A program made the position numbers and the translations under genes. A DNA stretch of 28,302 nucleotides from a virus. The notes under the pieces were generated by a model, which worked only from the letters and a program-made list of their open reading frames with translations, ran no database searches and had not been told where the DNA came from. The stretch is from the IMG/VR virus record IMGVR_UViG_3300006086_000026, positions 1 to 28,302 of that record; one strand, written 5' to 3'. This document shows positions 2,983 to 27,314 of the stretch, piece by piece. Position 1 is the stretch's first letter. Each line of letters begins with the position of its first letter.

Positions 2983-3145
2983 CTGATGCACTCCGTTTTG
3001 AGGGTGTGCTCAGGGTGTCAGGTCATGCGGAGTCATGCATGTGGTTGCTGTTTGCTGACATTTGAACAGGCAACTACCGCATAATGATCGTTTTACTTTC
3101 CTGTGGCACTATAAAACAGCCAGTGTCATAAACGAGGGATTGAGA
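2983..3145. promoter_or_regulatory. Divergent promoter region between FI and the Z/fun-slot insert
   Basis: Noncoding gap between two divergent genes, so it should hold the late promoter of FI (minus) and the promoter of the toxin-like gene (plus). The nearest match to the Ogr/Delta activator site TGT-N12-ACA is an imperfect TGT-N12-ACC on the minus strand (3061-3044). The stretch 3023-3039 (two ATGC motifs 10 bp apart) nearly repeats a stretch beside cos (21188-21204). No firm -10/-35 assignment. Confidence 0.35.
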
Positions 3146-3820
3146 ATGAGTTCAGGAACAGCCGCAAGACAGGAACCCGGACGTTACTACACATTTGAGT
3201 CAAGATTGCCTCAGGGCGTTTTTTTTGAGATTCGCCCCGGTCATTTGCCAAGAAATGCAAAGCCTATAACGGATGAAACCAGCGGTATGTGTATCGGTTA
3301 CTCGGTCGCACAGGCTCCGGGTTTGTGGCAGATTTATGATGTTCAGGGGCATTTTGTCAGGCTGGAAGAAGCGCCACTTGAAACACCCCTGATTGATCCC
3401 ACGGATATTGCCCTGTTTGGCTTGGGAATTTTTCGTATCCTTCGTACAGGGCGGGTGCTGTTTGAATCAGGGGCACGTGCCGCTGTTTATGCGAAGCTCA
3501 GTCACTCCACTATATCCTTTCTGCGCAGCAGACTTAAACTCGGGCTGCATGCACGTAACCTTAAAATGACCGAGACTGCTGCAAAACATATGTATGAACC
3601 GAGTCGCTATGTCCCTCTGCAAATTCAGGAAAGAGCGATTCGCTATGGCAGGCGGATGGCAGATCCCCGCAAAGGTGAAGGTATGTTCAGATATGAGACC
3701 AGAATGTTTAAACTACGCTTTAATAAGCAAACAATGGAATATGAGTATAAAGAATACACACTTGAAGTCGTCGTGCGTGAGTCAGACTGGACGATATCGC
3801 ATTTTAAATACATGGATTAA
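3146..3820 (+). CDS. Putative polymorphic-toxin-like protein (Z/fun-slot cargo)
   Basis: 224 aa from ATG at 3146 (GAGGGA 7 nt upstream); a longer TTG-initiated frame from 3062 would run through the promoter region. The N-terminal part (to about residue 80) is unrecognised. Residues about 85-115 hold an Ile/Leu/Gly-rich stretch (PTDIALFGLGIFRILRTG) like the region before many contact-dependent or type VI toxin domains. The last about 85 residues form a compact domain with ETAAKHMYEPSRYVP, then AIRYGRRMADP, then strands ending YTLEVVVRESDWTISHF. This spacing of His, Arg and a terminal strand pair resembles DUF4258/BrnT-like RNase-type toxin tails (inference). It is followed 17 bp later by an immunity-like gene. 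AT-richer than the tail genes on both sides and on the opposite strand. No signal peptide or delivery domain seen. An abortive-infection or T5-type exclusion role, as for P2 Fun at the same locus, is possible. Confidence 0.6.
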   Translation: MSSGTAARQEPGRYYTFESRLPQGVFFEIRPGHLPRNAKPITDETSGMCIGYSVAQAPGLWQIYDVQGHFVRLEEAPLETPLIDPTDIALFGLGIFRILRTGRVLFESGARAAVYAKLSHSTISFLRSRLKLGLHARNLKMTETAAKHMYEPSRYVPLQIQERAIRYGRRMADPRKGEGMFRYETRMFKLRFNKQTMEYEYKEYTLEVVVRESDWTISHFKYMD

Positions 3821-3837
3821 CAGACTGGAAAACTTGT

Positions 3838-4278
3838 ATGTTTGATTTGCGCAATGAAGATTTCACCTTTGTGATTTCTCCTTTTGAAAGAATCTCAGAC
3901 GATGAAGCCGATCCGGTTGATCATCTATGGGACTGGATCCAATCCTGGATTGAGTTCTCTGTTAGCGGCCTTAAAATGCAGTTTCAAACTGAATTTACCA
4001 TCGGCGAGCTAAAGATTTTAAAGGATGAGTTTTTCGCTCATTACCAGGCAATTATCACGCAGCGTGAATTAAAACCTTTTAATTTTCGCAGCGAACGTGG
4101 CCAGCTCAATATGGTTATCAGAAAAGTTACGGGTAAAGACGGTGTTATAGTGGAGTTTGATATCCGCCCTGAACCACACGCCGACAGCGTTCAGGTTAAA
4201 GGTGACTTCAGCCTTAATGAAAGCTATTTTCCTGACATTCTGAAGCGGCTTGATGAAATGATTCAATGGCAGAATTAG
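3838..4278 (+). CDS. Putative immunity protein (WapI-like) for the upstream toxin-like protein
   Basis: 146 aa, acidic and Trp-containing, starting 17 bp after the toxin-like gene. It has WDWIQSWIEFSVSGLKMQFQ, then EFTIGELKILKDEFF, then alternating strands (FDIRPEP, QVKGDFSLNESYFPDIL) and a C-terminal helix ending RLDEMIQWQN. The pattern of strands, then a helix starting near Y-x-P-x-x-x-x-L, then a strand-rich half is what I associate with the WapI family of immunity proteins; this is memory of the family and not a search. Its place directly behind a toxin-like gene, in one transcription unit ended by a terminator at 4306-4333, supports an immunity or antitoxin role. It could also be an unrelated moron product. 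Confidence 0.55.
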   Translation: MFDLRNEDFTFVISPFERISDDEADPVDHLWDWIQSWIEFSVSGLKMQFQTEFTIGELKILKDEFFAHYQAIITQRELKPFNFRSERGQLNMVIRKVTGKDGVIVEFDIRPEPHADSVQVKGDFSLNESYFPDILKRLDEMIQWQN

Positions 4279-8503: not shown

Positions 8504-9565
8504 ATGAGAAAGCTATTTGTAGAAGATGAAACACAAAGGGTGTTAAAGCAGTGCCGTAAGCTTGTTGCAAGAGAATCAGCGGACACGGAGTTTGATAAGA
8601 CTAGGAATTTATACATAACCCAAATGATAGATCTAATGACTCAACATCCTGAGCATTGGGATAAAACCACACCTTTAAATATAAGTTACTTTGGTGATAT
8701 ATTCATTAATGATCTAAATAGGATGGATTTTAATAAATACTATCTTGATGTGATATTTGCCGATCTGTTTAGGTTTTTAATTGAAAGCTATATTAGCAGT
8801 CCGGGTGAGATGAGTATGGAGTCAAAAGCTATTCGGAGTTTTGCCACGAATCAAGTGTCATATTTTGCAGAGGAAGCTTCCATTCAAATAAATTATGCTC
8901 TCCGAGACATGTCCCTGTCTATGTTTAAGAGCCTTTATAATGAAGAAGGCTTACAGGCAATTAGGAGTTTCTCTAACATTAAGGATCAAGCAGAAAACCT
9001 GAAAAGTGCTTGGGATACTGAAATCGAATCCAAGGAAAAAAAAGTAAAGTCTTTGAGGGATTCTCTTACCAATCAACTAGACTCTTATAACTTTGTTGGT
9101 CTACATGCAGGTTTTGCTAAACTTGGTCGTATTAAAGCAGGTGAGCTATTTTGGTCACGTCTTATAATGCTAGTCATCGGTTGCCTAACACCAATTTCAA
9201 TTGCTACACAGGTAATTTTATATCACCACTTCAATGTAGCATTCGAAAAGCCAATGGATCTGATTAAAATGCTCCCCGGAGCAAGTGTAACGTTATTATT
9301 ATTGTACTACTTTAGAGTTTCCTTAAGTAATTACTCTTCAGTTCGCGCTCAAATTATGCAAATCGAGCTTAGGAAAAGTTTATGTCGGTTCATTCAAAGA
9401 TATTCAGAGTACTCAGAGGGCATTAGCGCTAAAAACCCTCAGCTTCTGGCTAAATTTGAAGAGGTTATATTCTCAAATATAATGACTTCAGAGGATAAGA
9501 TACCATCAACATTTGATGGAATTGAGCAGATTGCAGGACTAATCTCTTCTTTAAAATCCAAATGA
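8504..9565 (+). CDS. Two-TM coiled-coil membrane protein in the orf30 slot, function unknown
   Basis: 353 aa, on the opposite strand to V and S, AT-rich and unlike its neighbours in base use. The N-terminal about 155 residues are a helical cytoplasmic-type domain; about 160-195 is a charged coiled coil (DQAENLKSAWDTEIESKEKK). A short conserved-looking motif SYNFVGLHAGFAKLG (194-208) precedes two membrane segments (about 217-240 and 255-273), with a soluble tail (about 280-353). The coiled coil, an NFVGL-like motif and two TMs resemble the DUF6161 type of protein as I remember it; not certain. In P2 this position holds orf30, a known variable cargo site. A superinfection-exclusion or defence role is plausible, with no catalytic motif to support it. 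Weak ribosome site (AAGAG). Confidence 0.75.
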   Translation: MRKLFVEDETQRVLKQCRKLVARESADTEFDKTRNLYITQMIDLMTQHPEHWDKTTPLNISYFGDIFINDLNRMDFNKYYLDVIFADLFRFLIESYISSPGEMSMESKAIRSFATNQVSYFAEEASIQINYALRDMSLSMFKSLYNEEGLQAIRSFSNIKDQAENLKSAWDTEIESKEKKVKSLRDSLTNQLDSYNFVGLHAGFAKLGRIKAGELFWSRLIMLVIGCLTPISIATQVILYHHFNVAFEKPMDLIKMLPGASVTLLLLYYFRVSLSNYSSVRAQIMQIELRKSLCRFIQRYSEYSEGISAKNPQLLAKFEEVIFSNIMTSEDKIPSTFDGIEQIAGLISSLKSK

Positions 9566-18146: not shown

Positions 18147-19256
18147 TTAAATTTTCGCTTTCTTAGGTGGTGCACAGCACCAACTGAAAAAAATTGATCC
18201 TATGTCACTCCAAATTCTTTTCATCTGAGGAGTCAACTTAGGTTTAAAAGCTTTTAAATTACCATACTTTATATGATCAACTGTTTTGGTCAGAATGTCA
18301 CTGCCATATCCATCGACTTTGAAACACCCTGGCTCACACGAACATACGCCTTGCCCAACACAAACACTTTCACGAAGTTCATTGGTTTGGGATAGTATTG
18401 GTCTCCAATAAGGAGTGTGTGAGACATCCAGTTGAAGAACTTTTTTCAAATCAAGACCATTTTTATGGTCATAGTAAAACTTAGCATCCTCTCTTATTTC
18501 TGTTACACGATCCCAGAAGTTTAATGAAAATTGCTGTTCCCTATTAATTCCATTTTTTTCTGTTACTTCTCTTAATAAATACTGTGGGATAAGACACTCA
18601 ACTTCATGAGCATCCAAAACATTAACCAACCCTGTGACATTGCTTGTAACATTATTAAAAGCGCGGCAGGTGCTTCCTCTTGATGATTCTGGGTGTTTTT
18701 TATCATTATCTAATATGCACAATACTAACTCATTGTTACTTACAAATCGATCAAAGGTTGCACGCGTCGAACCGCCTCCTCCATTTATTGCATCAAAAAC
18801 AGGAGGGCAGCTTCCATTAGCATTTATATTCTTCAAGTATTCTAATGCAACTATCTCATAAAAATCGGCATCACTAGGATTCTCACAAATGACTTTTGAC
18901 TTTTGAATGGATATTGAGTCTTGAAAGAATGAAGCAGTACAATGGAACACTTTCTTATTTGCAGGATTACTCCAATGATAAGCGTTTCCTGACATATTAA
19001 AATCAACATAAACCACGATTTCTATATGAGGAACTATCTGAGCATATTCAAGTTGAGCACGATAGAGTTCAATAGCTTGCATTTTTGTAGTTGTGCTCAG
19101 AGCGTCCAGCTTTGCTATAGTATCACGTAAAAAAGTTCTATCGCATAAAATGATATGTTTCCTTTCGCCAAAAGCTTTTATCAAGTTTTCAATTGCAGTT
19201 AAGTGCAATGCGTTGTTAGGGTCAAAACTACCATGATTTTTTATTTCGATTAGCAT
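18147..19256 (-). CDS. TOPRIM-like protein, partner of the ATPase
   Basis: 369 aa, AT-rich gene starting 4 bp after the ATPase stop. The middle looks like a TOPRIM (OLD/RNase M5-like) catalytic core: E125 in CENPSDADFYEIVALEYL, the DxD pair D183/D185 in LCILDNDKKHP, and E218/E220 in AHEVECLIP. The N-terminal about 90 residues (HIILCDRTFLRDTIAKL; IEIVVYVDFNM) form an unrecognised alpha/beta part. A cysteine cluster C299, C305, C307, C311 may bind a metal. With an SMC/ABC-type ATPase upstream the arrangement matches OLD (both domains in one protein), AbiL/RloA-RloB and PARIS (AriA-AriB), but I do not recognise this protein as AriB or RloB. Likely a nuclease effector of an anti-phage system; inferred. 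Confidence 0.7.
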   Translation of the reverse strand: MLIEIKNHGSFDPNNALHLTAIENLIKAFGERKHIILCDRTFLRDTIAKLDALSTTTKMQAIELYRAQLEYAQIVPHIEIVVYVDFNMSGNAYHWSNPANKKVFHCTASFFQDSISIQKSKVICENPSDADFYEIVALEYLKNINANGSCPPVFDAINGGGGSTRATFDRFVSNNELVLCILDNDKKHPESSRGSTCRAFNNVTSNVTGLVNVLDAHEVECLIPQYLLREVTEKNGINREQQFSLNFWDRVTEIREDAKFYYDHKNGLDLKKVLQLDVSHTPYWRPILSQTNELRESVCVGQGVCSCEPGCFKVDGYGSDILTKTVDHIKYGNLKAFKPKLTPQMKRIWSDIGSIFFSWCCAPPKKAKI

Positions 19257-19260
19257 TTTT

Positions 19261-20823
19261 TCAATTCATCCCTGAGAAGAAACCAATCGGCCAATTATTT
19301 AAATATCCATTTTCGTCAAAATATGCATTTTGTAGAGTGGTACTATTTTTTTCATCTTTGTTAAATACAATAATCGAGACATCATCTTTACTTATTGGAT
19401 GAGAAGAGTCCTCGATACACTCACTTAAAGCTTCGATCATTGATTGGCTATGGGTTTCAAAAATTATTTTAACATTTTCGGTTTTTTTTACGACCTTAGC
19501 AAAAAGTTTTGCAAGGTTGTGTTGATAAGCAGGGTGTAAATGAAGTTCCGGCTGCTCAATAATAAAAAGAATAGGGTTGTTCTTTTTTGAATTATTTTTA
19601 TTTTCGGACTCTATCCATATAGCAGCTATGATAGGTAATACTTGTGAGTAGCCAAATCCCATATCACTAACATTGAACTCATTATCTGAACCAGCCATTT
19701 GTATATTTACAGCGAAGTGCGCACCTACCTGTTTAACTTTAACATAGAAGCCAAAATTCTCTTTTGTCCAAGCCTCAAAATTTGCCTTCTCTTGAGGTCG
19801 CAATGAATTTAGCAACATTGCAAGATTTGAACCTGTATGATCTATCTCATGTACCTGTAAATCTTGGAATCTATAAAACCTCTCGGAAGTAGCACGCAAA
19901 GGAGCTATATATCTTACTGAACGATAAGTTTCATTCAATGAAATATTAATAAGGCTATTAAGGTAATTAATATTCCACATAATTGATAAAGGGTATACTT
20001 TTTGTAATATTTCAGTCTCAAATGTCTTTAAGTTTTTAAGGAAGTGCTTTTGTTCTTTGAATTTATATTTAAGAACCTGTATGAAAAGATTCTTTGAAAC
20101 TGGACCAATGGCTTTTAATCCATCACGAATTTTAAGATTTGATGTGTTGTAATGAAAGTATGGCCTTAGATTTTTTACCGCGGAATCATAAAAAGATGCT
20201 TCGTAGGGGTCCTCTCTAAACGGAGAGCTCCACATGAGTTCCTTAGGAAAGAGAGCAGCTTGCATATTGGCTTCTTCTCGCTTTTTTAAACTCAATGTTG
20301 GGAGGAAGTTACCTGTGTTCCTAACAATATAATTATCTGATGGAAATGAGATGTTTTGATTCAAAAAGAATATATTGGCATTATTTTGTTCGTCAACAAC
20401 TATAGAGTATTCTTCATCAAAAAAAACCACAGTGACTTTTTTTGTTCTGGTTTTCTTATCTTTTCCAGAAGAAAGCTCAAGCTTGATTTTAACAGGAGTA
20501 TCATCATGAGATAATATCTTTCTTGAGCGAACTGACATCATATGTTTCTGAGTCAGGAGTATCTCAAAATTAAAACCAATAGTATCATTAGTTGTGTTCT
20601 TCGAGATAACGTCGGAAAAATCTCCAAAGTCAACATATCTTCCATACCACAAAACAGGCCCAGTGGTATTTTCTTCTGAAGATTGTCTGAATAGTGGGAA
20701 TGTTCTTATCAAAGAACTTTTACCGCTACTATTTTTACCCACAAAAATGGTAATTGGTTTTATTTCTAAATATTGTTCTTTGTCGAAACTTCTAAAGTTA
20801 TTAACACCAATCCCTTTAAGCAT
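19261..20823 (-). CDS. AAA/ABC-type ATPase (OLD-like, DUF3696-type C-terminus)
   Basis: 520 aa. N-terminal MLKGIGVNNFRSFDKEQYLE and Walker A GKNSSGKSS (29-37). A signature-like SDMGFGYSQVLPI lies at about 386-398. Walker B is ILFIIEQPELHLHP with E423 and E426, followed by the switch motif KIIFETHSQSMIEAL. The end, ENGYLNNWPIGFF, looks like the DUF3696 C-terminus found on defence-type ATPases. The long insert between the two halves (about 80-370) is characteristic of this group and should dimerise or sense a trigger. It is the first gene of a two-gene AT-rich operon inserted between cos and Q. By analogy it would hold the TOPRIM effector inactive until a phage component is detected (inference). 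Confidence 0.85.
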   Translation of the reverse strand: MLKGIGVNNFRSFDKEQYLEIKPITIFVGKNSSGKSSLIRTFPLFRQSSEENTTGPVLWYGRYVDFGDFSDVISKNTTNDTIGFNFEILLTQKHMMSVRSRKILSHDDTPVKIKLELSSGKDKKTRTKKVTVVFFDEEYSIVVDEQNNANIFFLNQNISFPSDNYIVRNTGNFLPTLSLKKREEANMQAALFPKELMWSSPFREDPYEASFYDSAVKNLRPYFHYNTSNLKIRDGLKAIGPVSKNLFIQVLKYKFKEQKHFLKNLKTFETEILQKVYPLSIMWNINYLNSLINISLNETYRSVRYIAPLRATSERFYRFQDLQVHEIDHTGSNLAMLLNSLRPQEKANFEAWTKENFGFYVKVKQVGAHFAVNIQMAGSDNEFNVSDMGFGYSQVLPIIAAIWIESENKNNSKKNNPILFIIEQPELHLHPAYQHNLAKLFAKVVKKTENVKIIFETHSQSMIEALSECIEDSSHPISKDDVSIIVFNKDEKNSTTLQNAYFDENGYLNNWPIGFFSGMN

Positions 20824-24818: not shown

Positions 24819-25328
24819 TCAACTCATGCCAAATGATGCACCGATGCCGCTGATGGCATCGACGGTTGAGGACAGTGTCGGATTAGCCTGAATACGTGCC
24901 TGTACTGCCATTGCGGCCAGTGTTAAGCAGCGAATACCACTATTAACGTTTTGCAGAAGGCCACGTTTACAGTTGGCTGTCATAGGTTCTGTAGAAGTTG
25001 CCCCAGCTGCTAACTGACCTACTTCTGCGGTGGCTTTCATGACATATAGGGGAAATTTTTCATCAGCGACTTCGTTTACCGGCACACAGGGGAGACACTG
25101 GATTTGCGCCAGCAGGCCATCAACTAACGTTGCATCCTCAGTGACATCGGTAAGGGCTAAAACCTCTAAGACGGTAAGCTGATGTGGCTGGTCTGGATTC
25201 AGCTTGTTACGCAACGTTTGCGCACGCATGCCGGACTGCTTAGCGACGTCTACCATGTTGTGAGCTAACGCGAATTTGCGACAGGCATCGTCGTAATGGG
25301 TATGGGTAGAAACCTTGAAATCAAACAT
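24819..25328 (-). CDS. cII: CII-type regulatory protein
   Basis: 169 aa from ATG at 25328 (AAGGA about 10 nt upstream); the longer frame to 25442 would run into the Cox-like gene. Phage regulatory CII family (186 CII type). It has a POU/HTH-like domain in the N-terminal half (MVDVAKQSGMRAQTLRNKLN) and a helical C-terminal half. In 186, CII activates the establishment promoter for CI. P2 itself has no such gene, so the control region is of the 186/PSP3 kind. Confidence 0.88.
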   Translation of the reverse strand: MFDFKVSTHTHYDDACRKFALAHNMVDVAKQSGMRAQTLRNKLNPDQPHQLTVLEVLALTDVTEDATLVDGLLAQIQCLPCVPVNEVADEKFPLYVMKATAEVGQLAAGATSTEPMTANCKRGLLQNVNSGIRCLTLAAMAVQARIQANPTLSSTVDAISGIGASFGMS

Positions 25329-25359
25329 GCTCAGATCCTTCTTAACTTGCAAAATCAAG

Positions 25360-25761
25360 TTATGGTTTGATATAGCGGCATTTGATTGCTTGTTGGCGGT
25401 TCTTCTCACGCCATGCAGCAACATTGATAAGCGGATTGCCATGTTTCGTCATGGTGGTCTCTACCACTTCGCCGGTCTTACGATTAGTGCGGTTCTGCGT
25501 GTAAGTGAAAGATGGAGTAGGAGCAAGCAAGACAACGCCATTAGCAATCCATTTCTCCAGCACCGACAGGCTAATGCGGTTGGCTGCAGCAAAGTCCTGC
25601 TTAGACATTGTTGGGGATGTGGCGAGCGTGACGGCTTTGTTTACGGCGTCGTTTACCGCTTCGCTGATGGCTGGCATCAAAATCGCTGCGACATTGGCAA
25701 TAAAATCTTGAGATTGCACTAAGTCAAATGCGTTCTGACTATTTGCATTTTCAGTATGCAT
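25360..25761 (-). CDS. cox: Cox/Apl-like regulator and excisionase
   Basis: 133 aa from ATG at 25761 (GGAG 9 nt upstream). The N-terminal about 55 residues are a helical extension not present in P2 Cox (91 aa). The rest is a Cox-type HTH (SKQDFAAANRISLSVLEKWI, ANGVVLLAP) followed by a conserved end GNPLINVAAWREKN. Cox represses the CI-side promoter and assists excision. First gene of the early operon, divergent from cI. Also reads as the repressor counterpart at the lysis-lysogeny switch. Confidence 0.85.
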   Translation of the reverse strand: MHTENANSQNAFDLVQSQDFIANVAAILMPAISEAVNDAVNKAVTLATSPTMSKQDFAAANRISLSVLEKWIANGVVLLAPTPSFTYTQNRTNRKTGEVVETTMTKHGNPLINVAAWREKNRQQAIKCRYIKP

Positions 25762-25876
25762 AACGCAGTATCTCCTATTAGTTAAGCGTGTTCTATTGTG
25801 TTGCATGTGGTATGCAAACACTCTAGATCGCATTTGTTTAACTGTAAACATAATTTAGCGTTTATTGGTAAAAATA
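25762..25876. promoter_or_regulatory. CI/Cox control region (lysis-lysogeny switch)
   Basis: 115 bp between divergent genes. The Cox-side promoter fits TTTACA (25848-25843), 17 bp, TAGAGT (25825-25820) on the minus strand. Directly after its -10 lies an imperfect palindrome, GTGTTGCAT/ATGCAAACAC, at 25798-25821. A second short palindrome, GTTTA-N4-TAAAC, lies at 25836-25849, over the -35. Both are placed to act as operators. The CI-side promoter is not clear to me. Confidence 0.5.
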
Positions 25877-26719
25877 ATGCGTCTTGAAAATGCAGTTGCG
25901 AGCGAGGTGTTAGAACGAATCCTCTCAGCGTATGGCTTCACCATGCAAAAAGAATTAAGCGATAGACTAGAAATTGCCAAGAGCAATGTCGCTAGTTGGT
26001 TGGCGCGCGGTCAGGTTCCGGGCAACGTTATTGTGCAATGTTCTCTTGATACAGGAGCTGATGTAAATTGGTTAGTTACTGGTGAACTTGAAAAAGCAAG
26101 TCAACAACGCGAACTTCCAAACCTGACTGGTAAAGCTGTTTACGATGAAGTTATGGCTAATGGTGGTAAATCTGTGCTTCGTCGTATCCTTGATGCATAT
26201 GGATTCACCCAGCAAAAGCAACTCTGTGAATTACTGGATATTTCATCAGGCACTGTCAGCACCTGGGTAAGACGGAATTATTTTCCCGGTGATGTTGTTG
26301 TTGCGTGTGCGCTTGATACAGGTGTTGATCTGCATTGGCTTGCAACAGGAAAGGGAAAACAGCTAAAAGAAACTATTAAAGAATCCGAAACCTTTTCTAT
26401 CCCTCGCAAGAATCTTATTGCAGGCAGCTTGTATGAAAATGGTCTGTGGGAAATTAACCTCAGCTTCATCTCTCAAAATCTTGTTGAACCGGTGTTCGTA
26501 TCGAGCAGCAATTCTGCTTGGGTTGTTGATTTAAGTATTGGTGATATTAGCAACGGGCGTTGGTTGATGGGAATCGACGGTAAATACGATGTATATGACA
26601 TCACGCTTTTACCTGGGCGTAAAATTAGCGTCACTAATAAGGGAACAAATTTCACTTGTGGTGCTGATGAAGTAAAAACTGCTGGCAAGGTGGTTTTGAC
26701 AATGGATTATAATTTTTAA
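25877..26719 (+). CDS. cI: CI repressor with tandem duplicated DNA-binding domain
   Basis: 280 aa from ATG at 25877; a TTG at 25865 would add four codons. Two copies of the 186-CI N-terminal HTH domain: residues 11-70 (VLERILSAYGF to WLVTGE) and 100-159 (VLRRILDAYGF to WLATGK). They align without gaps over 60 positions, with 32 identities by eye, and an 89-residue (267-nt) period. A linker and a single C-terminal oligomerisation domain follow (about 172-280, FSIPRKNL to the end). 186 CI has one HTH copy and is not RecA-cleaved; no self-cleavage motif is seen here either. It should bind the operators at 25798-25849 and hold the prophage silent. Confidence 0.92.
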   Translation: MRLENAVASEVLERILSAYGFTMQKELSDRLEIAKSNVASWLARGQVPGNVIVQCSLDTGADVNWLVTGELEKASQQRELPNLTGKAVYDEVMANGGKSVLRRILDAYGFTQQKQLCELLDISSGTVSTWVRRNYFPGDVVVACALDTGVDLHWLATGKGKQLKETIKESETFSIPRKNLIAGSLYENGLWEINLSFISQNLVEPVFVSSSNSAWVVDLSIGDISNGRWLMGIDGKYDVYDITLLPGRKISVTNKGTNFTCGADEVKTAGKVVLTMDYNF

Positions 26720-26732
26720 TAAGGGATAAATC

Positions 26733-27314
26733 ATGGATATGATTTTTGCAATATTAGGTTTAGTTTTAGTGATTTGGTCTGTTCGTAGCATTTTTAATAA
26801 GCAGCAAGGTCTTGGTAAAAAAATTGGTAAGTCTATTTTTTCTGCATGGTATTTCTTTACTGCTGCTGGTTTGGCAATATCCCCATCTGATTCAGTTAAG
26901 ATCGCTATCATTATGATGATGGTCGGTGCATTTGTTATTTGGTATTGTAATCGAAATTACAAAACGCCTACCACTAATAACGATATACTAAATGGTTATG
27001 CTGACGCTGTAAAAGGATTTGATTTATCCACTAACAAGAATGAACAAAGCAAGTATCGCTCAGTTAACCATGCAAAAGGCAAAGATGAAGAAATCAAAAA
27101 GGTCGCATTTTCATATGTGAATAGTAAAGGCGAAAATAGCTTTCGAGACGTCGATGTTAAAAGCTTTGATGGTGAGTATTTAGAAGGTTATTGTCATCTT
27201 TCACGTAAATTCAAGACATTTAGGCTCGATAGGGTCGAAGGTGAAATCATCATCCGAGATACAGGCGAAGCCATAGATACTATTGATTGGGCTGCTCAAA
27301 TGGAAGCAAGATAA
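26733..27314 (+). CDS. Membrane protein with a WYL-like C-terminal domain
   Basis: 193 aa, 13 bp after cI. Three membrane segments (about 2-19, 36-50, 54-73), a hydrophilic linker (about 75-118), and a C-terminal segment VAFSYVNSKGENSFRDVDVK to CHLSRKFKTFRLDRVEGEII with the pattern of a WYL domain (AFSYVNS, R138, a YCHL box and a TFRLDR end). WYL domains sense nucleic-acid-like ligands in defence regulators; on membrane anchors they are less common. Co-transcribed with cI and so expressed in the lysogen, which suits a superinfection-exclusion or signalling role (inference). AT-rich. Confidence 0.75.
   Translation: MDMIFAILGLVLVIWSVRSIFNKQQGLGKKIGKSIFSAWYFFTAAGLAISPSDSVKIAIIMMMVGAFVIWYCNRNYKTPTTNNDILNGYADAVKGFDLSTNKNEQSKYRSVNHAKGKDEEIKKVAFSYVNSKGENSFRDVDVKSFDGEYLEGYCHLSRKFKTFRLDRVEGEIIIRDTGEAIDTIDWAAQMEAR

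Follow-up and report, generated by a model that had tools for sequence, protein, structure and literature searches.

The window, i.e. the whole 28,302 nt stretch of DNA analysed herein (IMG/VR record IMGVR_UViG_3300006086_000026), encodes a CI repressor with two helix–turn–helix (HTH) domains. Divergent cox/apl-type (phrog_3554) and cII-type (PF06892) genes adjoin the window cI, as they do for 186-type CI. The repressor and these neighbours are arranged as follows:

25877–26719, + strand: cI, double-HTH repressor of 280 aa (Pfam matches, reading frame, AlphaFold2 model)
25898–26089, + strand: HTH1, the variable head, residues 8–71, recognition helix region AKSNVASWLARGQVPGN (PF07022, alignments)
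26165–26356, + strand: HTH2, the conserved head, residues 97–160, recognition helix region SSGTVSTWVRRNYFPGD (PF07022, alignments)
26396–26695, + strand: C-terminal oligomerisation domain (CTD), PF16452, residues 174–273 (73.9 bits; fold match 2fkd)
25360–25761, − strand: Cox/Apl-like gene, phrog_3554, with a start at 25761 presumed from the ribosome-binding site
24819–25331, − strand: cII-like activator, PF06892, with a presumed start at 25331

The cI start used is the ATG at 25877, with a TTG at 25865 being a possible alternative. A Pfam search of the reading frame returns two matches to PF07022 (Phage_CI_repr), both above the cut-off of 22 bits, at 25904–26086 (76.6 bits, profile positions 1–61 of 65) and 26174–26359 (95.1 bits, positions 2–63 of 65). 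These are followed by one match to PF16452 (Phage_CI_C; cut-off 27 bits). When the protein is compared to itself, 32 of 60 residues are identical at an offset of 89 (residues 10–69 or 11–70), versus 12 identities at the next-best offset and a maximum of 14 in 300 shuffled proteins. An AlphaFold2 model built from 33 aligned sequences (mean pLDDT 81, pTM 0.40) folds both copies with confidence as five-helix HTH bundles, with helices at 8–68 and 97–157, respectively. An earlier note on this DNA had proposed two complete HTH domains ahead of a single C-terminal domain, and each element of that description holds. Between the heads lies a low-confidence linker (73–85) and then a helix (85–94), and a beta-rich C-terminal domain comes after the second head; as pTM is only 0.40, the model does not predict how the domains are placed with respect to one another. 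The best Foldseek match of the model is 186 CI (2fjr, E 4e-18), and the C-terminal domain has the fold of the 186 CI CTD (2fkd, TMt 0.91).

With regard to the remainder of the window, the gene after cI (26733–27311, + strand) appears to encode a membrane-anchored product that weakly matches a WYL-like domain (25.4 bits; cut-off 21.8), and is itself followed by a phrog_21256 gene, a family without functional assignment. The region 18147–20823 (− strand) harbours an AAA_15 ATPase, for which the best PADLOC match is NsnB (188 bits), and a 369-aa partner outside the known families; this pair adjoins the terminase/portal genes and looks like anti-phage defence cargo. Genes at 3062–4278 and 8504–9565 (+ strand), opposite in strand to the tail genes, are probably also cargo, with one matching a WapI-like immunity protein family (30.8 bits).

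Distribution and origin of the double head

That the duplication is a peculiarity of one phage is not borne out, and a rare, single-phage event is ruled out: a large subfamily in Enterobacterales, with the classical phage PSP3 among its members, routinely has this layout, an outcome that the earlier note had itself named as counting against its proposal. A tblastn comparison with named phages yielded 133 records, in 92 of which a single place spans 80 % or more of the query, and PSP3, SI22, SW9, SEN1, Midge and RCIP0057 each match in a single piece from residue 1, 8 or 11 to 279 (the PSP3 cI is 861 bp). From viral contigs, 80 of 117 relatives were kept; together with the named phages and the window, but without 186 and the broken L023 (a stop after 9 codons), these gave 85 sequences, which reduction at 90 % identity brought to 40. 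All 40 carry both heads in the alignment. Sequenced genomes contributed 72 loci, of which 54 are double-headed, 17 are single-headed and one is without a usable frame. Using an HTH2-type single CI as the query, the 80 sequences kept comprise 68 double and 12 single CIs, and using 186 CI, all 80 of those kept are single-headed, as is the 186 branch; contigs are shared between these scans. Within the family to which genome G001 belongs, PF07022 is matched in 52 of 119 genomes; of the 64 matches of at least 50 bits, 38 stand singly, whilst the other 26 are paired in tandem, one pair in each of 13 genomes (hand count). PSP3-type cI is found in 64 of 5,426 complete E. coli genomes, and in 40 of those over at least 80 % of the query. 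The double-head architecture is already present in public genomes such as PSP3; a description of it, or of an operator split, was not found in the open-licence literature, subscription papers being outside that search.

The named hosts of the relatives are nearly all Enterobacterales; one locus labelled Chryseobacterium (L141) may be contamination. The CIs of L104 and L160 are truncated, and L149 has no usable frame at the match start, and no domain. In L139/L321 (Enterobacter sp. EA-1) the CI is double-headed and the end of HTH2 is intact, but the HTH2 core is scrambled in the manner expected of two compensating frameshifts. An unusual array is seen in L327 (G044:C11:15000-19000), where three adjacent same-strand, single-HTH, 186-type cI genes of approximately 200 codons each occur.

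In a tree of 111 HTH rows (54 HTH1, 39 HTH2, 18 single), a single branch (support 100/100) separates all 54 HTH1 rows, including that of the window (WIN_h1), from the rest. The window HTH2 (WIN_h2) lies among the HTH2 rows (fork support 89/92), where HTH2-type single-headed CIs (e.g. L140, L143) are also placed. The simplest reading is one old internal duplication with later loss of HTH1 in some lines, such that the HTH2-type singles probably lost HTH1 secondarily; this direction is one that we infer, as the HTH alignment has a mere 64 columns and the tree is midpoint-rooted.

The two heads have changed at very different rates. Across 103 non-redundant double CIs, summed column entropy is 84.1 bits for HTH1 versus 42.1 bits for HTH2, with the HTH2 recognition helix, SSGT.STW.RR..FPGD, being nearly fixed. 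Among 89 doubles, the HTH1 distance exceeds the HTH2 distance in 92 % of pairs. The CTD of double-headed CIs has a mean distance of 0.63, versus 0.45 for HTH1 and 0.23 for HTH2, which suggests rapid diversification or exchange of an oligomerisation or anti-repressor surface.

The predicted lytic promoter and its covariation with HTH1

The region between the divergent genes contains three predicted elements:

25820–25848, − strand: predicted lytic promoter pR, with −35 TTTACA (25848–25843), −10 TAGAGT (25825–25820) and a spacer of 17 (consensus placement)
25826–25860, no strand: predicted pR operator of HTH1, GATCGCATTTGTTTAACTGTAAACATAATTTAGCG, with inner palindrome TTTGTTTAACTGTAAACATAA at 25833–25853 (palindromy, HTH1 covariation)
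25762–25819, no strand: Cox/RDF-type repeat region with conserved TGTTGCATGTGGTATGCAAACA (by eye; goes by the type of cox gene and not by that of CI)

The position of pR in the window is that of the mapped pR in the annotation of phage 186, and its predicted operator shows 7 of 10 palindromic pairs at centre −0.5. By eye, each of the HTH1 helix classes AKSNVASW, AKSNVAGW, SNVGSW, HANNVSSW and PANNISSW has a separate inverted repeat at pR. For 89 of the 103 doubles (14 were dropped, having no clear promoter or too little DNA), the partial Mantel correlation of operator DNA is 0.346 with HTH1, 0.128 with HTH2, 0.028 with the CTD and −0.026 with the RDF region, with 0, 0, 33 and 154 of 200 permutations, respectively, being as high, counts which are not true probabilities because the sequences are related. 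RDF DNA also correlates with HTH1 (0.208). When evaluated block by block, the correlation with HTH1 peaks at 0.546 in the −17 to 0 block, within the spacer between the −35 and −10 of pR, and falls to 0.09–0.11 in the leader nearer the gene. As plain linkage would be expected to generate the opposite gradient, with the highest values close to the HTH1 codons, this pattern argues against it.

The palindromes at pR are themselves distinct in the two kinds of phage. In 35 distinct double-type regions, centres occur at −9.25, +1.75 and +12.25 from the −35 start, approximately 10.75 bp apart, with means of 5.0, 5.3 and 4.9 of 10 pairs versus a control of 3.86. The nine distinct single-type regions peak at −9 (6.7 of 10 pairs), with nothing at +12 in the same scan. 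Given several centres at pR of doubles, HTH2 could also help there. Outer half-site symmetry at pR is seen by eye in the L013-type clade; in that of the window, an outer CGC/GCG pair is off-centre by approximately 2 bp. A GATC (Dam site) adjoins the pR −10 in many doubles with otherwise differing operators (25826–25829 in the window), possibly as a methylation input or as a portion of a conserved half-site.

A conserved palindrome within 25762–25819, TTGCATGTGGTATGCAA, was considered as an HTH2 operator and rejected, as by eye it goes with the cox gene type in single- and double-headed phages alike. Because this region follows cox type in both, it is more likely a Cox/RDF site region, and probably holds the sites of an excisionase-type regulator; its partial correlation with the operator is −0.03. 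RDF sites are described, in PMC7498355, as 10–11 bp direct repeats between pR and pL.

The HTH2-type motif and its placement

A second palindrome, CTTGCAWWTGCAAG, occurs in most of the HTH2-type single-headed relatives, 11 of 17 of which carry it or a CTTGCATTTGCAAG-like form in the pR spacer at no more than 2 mismatches. Only 4 of 103 doubles have it near pR or the cI start at the same threshold. Over positions −650 to +450 of HTH1, the 103 doubles hold 111 motif sites at no more than 2 mismatches versus 4.2 in shuffles, of which 67 lie at +180 to +199, in the linker codons, and 30 at −520 to −560, just before cII. The same range in the 17 HTH2-type singles holds 14 sites versus 0.0 expected, whilst 20 186-type phages have none at no more than 2 mismatches (0.6 expected). 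The places occupied in doubles are those of the FL, FR and pB sites of CI annotated in phage 186 (NC_001317). The corresponding elements of the window are:

26087–26100, no strand: predicted FL operator of HTH2, CTTGAAAAAGCAAG, within cI, in the HTH1–HTH2 linker codons
25346–25359, no strand: predicted HTH2 operator at FR, CTTGCAAAATCAAG, which precedes the presumed cII start by 15 bp, as FR does in 186

Each has 2 mismatches to the motif, with FL lying at +189. A scan of the window alone gives 5 hits at no more than 3 mismatches versus 7.4 expected, which is not above chance, and these two sites count only because of their places and the relatives. FR reaches 2 mismatches or fewer in only 33 of 103 doubles.

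At FL, the predicted operator is written in the codons that join the two heads, and can therefore be compared with what synonymous codon choice would give. Across 103 linkers, 2.39 mismatches are observed versus 4.75 with synonymous re-coding (null means 4.48–5.02). For 83 representative linkers the excess over the synonymous expectation is −2.42, versus −0.30 to +0.28 in 22 other gene windows; an additional gene window that covers the linker gives −2.43. When 300 random palindromes were evaluated, only two reached the FL excess, both equal to the motif, and none of the other 298 did so. FL is thus preserved as a DNA signal by codon choice, and not merely as a conserved linker peptide. The match also varies with the head: mean mismatches are 1.95 with SSGT/STGT/SAGT-type HTH2 (n=73) versus 3.38 with other HTH2 variants (n=29), and 21 of the 23 HTH1 helix classes paired with SSGT/STGT/SAGT-type HTH2 have a member with FL at no more than 2 mismatches.

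The ogr/pB region is outside the window record, and pB was assessed in relatives. Searching 48 virus records for Ogr gave 26 matches and 22 readable starts, which with four named phages make 26 regions. The motif is present at pB with no more than 2 mismatches in 11 of 17 doubles, 4 of 5 HTH2-type singles and none of 4 186-type phages (L171 and L172 in this set being near-copies). Of the other doubles, L211 and L238 are weak, at 3 mismatches, and L028, L049, L222 and L229 lack the motif (at least 4). PSP3, SI22, RCIP0057 and Midge all have CTTGCAAATGCAA at pB despite three HTH1 classes and pR operators. In the HTH2-type singles L140–L142, L162 and L169, a nearly identical helix is accompanied by different palindromes at pR, and thus the motif is not the only possible site for that helix.

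Proposed division of operator work and relation to known systems

The explanation that we favour, and consider probable, is that HTH1 reads pR and sets immunity, that HTH2 holds FL, FR and pB, and that both derive from one old HTH duplication. The N-terminal HTH of a 186-type CI would have been duplicated once, long ago, with the two copies subsequently dividing the work of the one 186 head. HTH1 would bind the inverted repeat that serves as operator at pR and lies within, and next to, the −10/−35 spacer, and the quick diversification of this head would generate immunity specificity. HTH2 would bind the nearly invariant operator CTTGCAWWTGCAAG at FL, FR and, in most phages checked, pB, with CTTGCAAATGCAAG as its predicted target DNA. 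Pairs of HTH1 may thereby form on pR and pairs of HTH2 on FL, FR and pB, joined by the CTD oligomer; the CTD presumably multimerises as in 186, such that one oligomer would show both kinds of head, and pR would be tied to FL/FR through looping or wrapping. Computation establishes the two domains, the grouping of the HTH1 copies, the unequal rates, the covariation of HTH1 with pR, and the placement and codon-level preservation of the HTH2-type motif; the assignment of each head to its sites, oligomerisation, looping and effects on immunity are inferred from sequence. The earlier note had offered two uses for a two-headed monomer, and it is the binding of two different operator types, as predicted here from sequence, that is favoured; the other, closely spaced operators, has a counterpart in the regularly spaced palindrome centres at pR.

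The main competitor, which we judge unlikely, is a composite operator, in which a single long site at pR would accommodate the two heads of every monomer together (four half-sites per dimer), FL, FR and pB being weaker or incidental. The three palindrome centres of double-type pR, as opposed to −9 alone in single-type regions, would suit such an arrangement, as would nested or paired pR palindromes seen by eye in some clades (e.g. L013, L225, L198) and a linker which, being modelled at low confidence, could be flexible. Against this, the HTH2 helix is nearly invariant while pR differs widely among clades, operator DNA correlates only weakly with HTH2, and the two pR palindromes look similar in several clades, which suits two HTH1 pairs and not one of each head. 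The motif is also kept at FL by codon choice, and is therefore not incidental.

Two further readings would each take specific recognition of the motif away from HTH2, and both appear very improbable. One makes HTH2 mainly structural or non-specific, serving dimerisation or general DNA affinity, with HTH1 alone reading sequence; the strong conservation of HTH2 does extend to positions beyond the recognition helix, but its invariant positions include that helix, and in single-headed phages whose pR palindromes are clear, an HTH2-type domain is the only head. The other, at similarly long odds, assigns CTTGCAWWTGCAAG to a different protein (CII, Cox, Ogr or a host factor), unrelated to HTH2. FR does adjoin the start of cII, in 186 also overlapping the region of the pE promoter, and the motif arms at FR are often imperfect. 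The motif is found, however, at three places mapped as CI sites in 186, as well as at the pR operator place of HTH2-type singles. The 186-type phages lack it, their FL, FR and pB being ATTCAC-type sites instead.

Returning to a division of work between HTH1 and HTH2, we lean, by a little, towards the broader proposition that duplication inside one gene resolved an old conflict. Where 186 has one head for two operator vocabularies, the double CIs would have two heads, with HTH1 co-evolving with pR and HTH2 locked to the FL/FR/pB motif. Heteroimmune phages would then share flanking and late-activator operators, so that repression by a prophage CI could extend, in part, to the late activator of a heteroimmune invader. 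If true, this would be a natural genetic switch whose repressor has split two binding specificities between duplicated heads, separating the evolution of immunity (HTH1/pR) from fixed network wiring (HTH2 with FL, FR and pB). Interactions among heteroimmune P2-like phages, and the coordination of distant sites by 186-type CI, would also become amenable to testing. The natural HTH1/operator pairs, with 23 HTH1 helix classes and one HTH2 type, are a ready set for studies of HTH specificity.

With regard to known systems, 186 CI has A- and B-type operators, and earlier studies of it reportedly dealt with action at a distance and the CI wheel. Like the window, 186 (NC_001317; 2fjr, 2fkd) has a PF07022 HTH and a PF16452 CTD and the same gene order, and its pR, FL and FR places are those at which CI sites are predicted in the window; the pB place, matched in relatives, is beyond the window record. 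Unlike the window CI, with two HTHs per chain, that of 186 uses one HTH for all sites, with different sequences at pR versus FL/FR/pB, and no HTH1/HTH2 split. Published work describes 186 CI as a 14-mer wheel that loops or wraps DNA and uses distal sites (PMC8053113), and FL and FR as its flanking sites (PMC7708051).

The CIs of PSP3, SI22, SW9, SEN1, Midge and RCIP0057 belong to the same double-HTH subfamily (approximately 51–54 % identity over nearly the full length), differing from the window in HTH1 class and pR operator, and carry annotations no more specific than CI, repressor or hypothetical protein. HTH2-type single CIs of Rahnella, Ewingella, Citrobacter and others (L140–L158, L161–L169) resemble HTH2 plus the CTD, without HTH1, and most have CTTGCAWWTGCAAG at pR. 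The nearest known two-domain phage repressor is that of mycobacteriophage TipsytheTRex, which, as set out in PMC9283540, is likewise an immunity repressor with two DNA-binding domains per chain. It differs in being a monomer in which an HTH is combined with a distinct stoperator domain, the two binding a single asymmetric site; it has no duplicated HTH and is not a 186-type CI.
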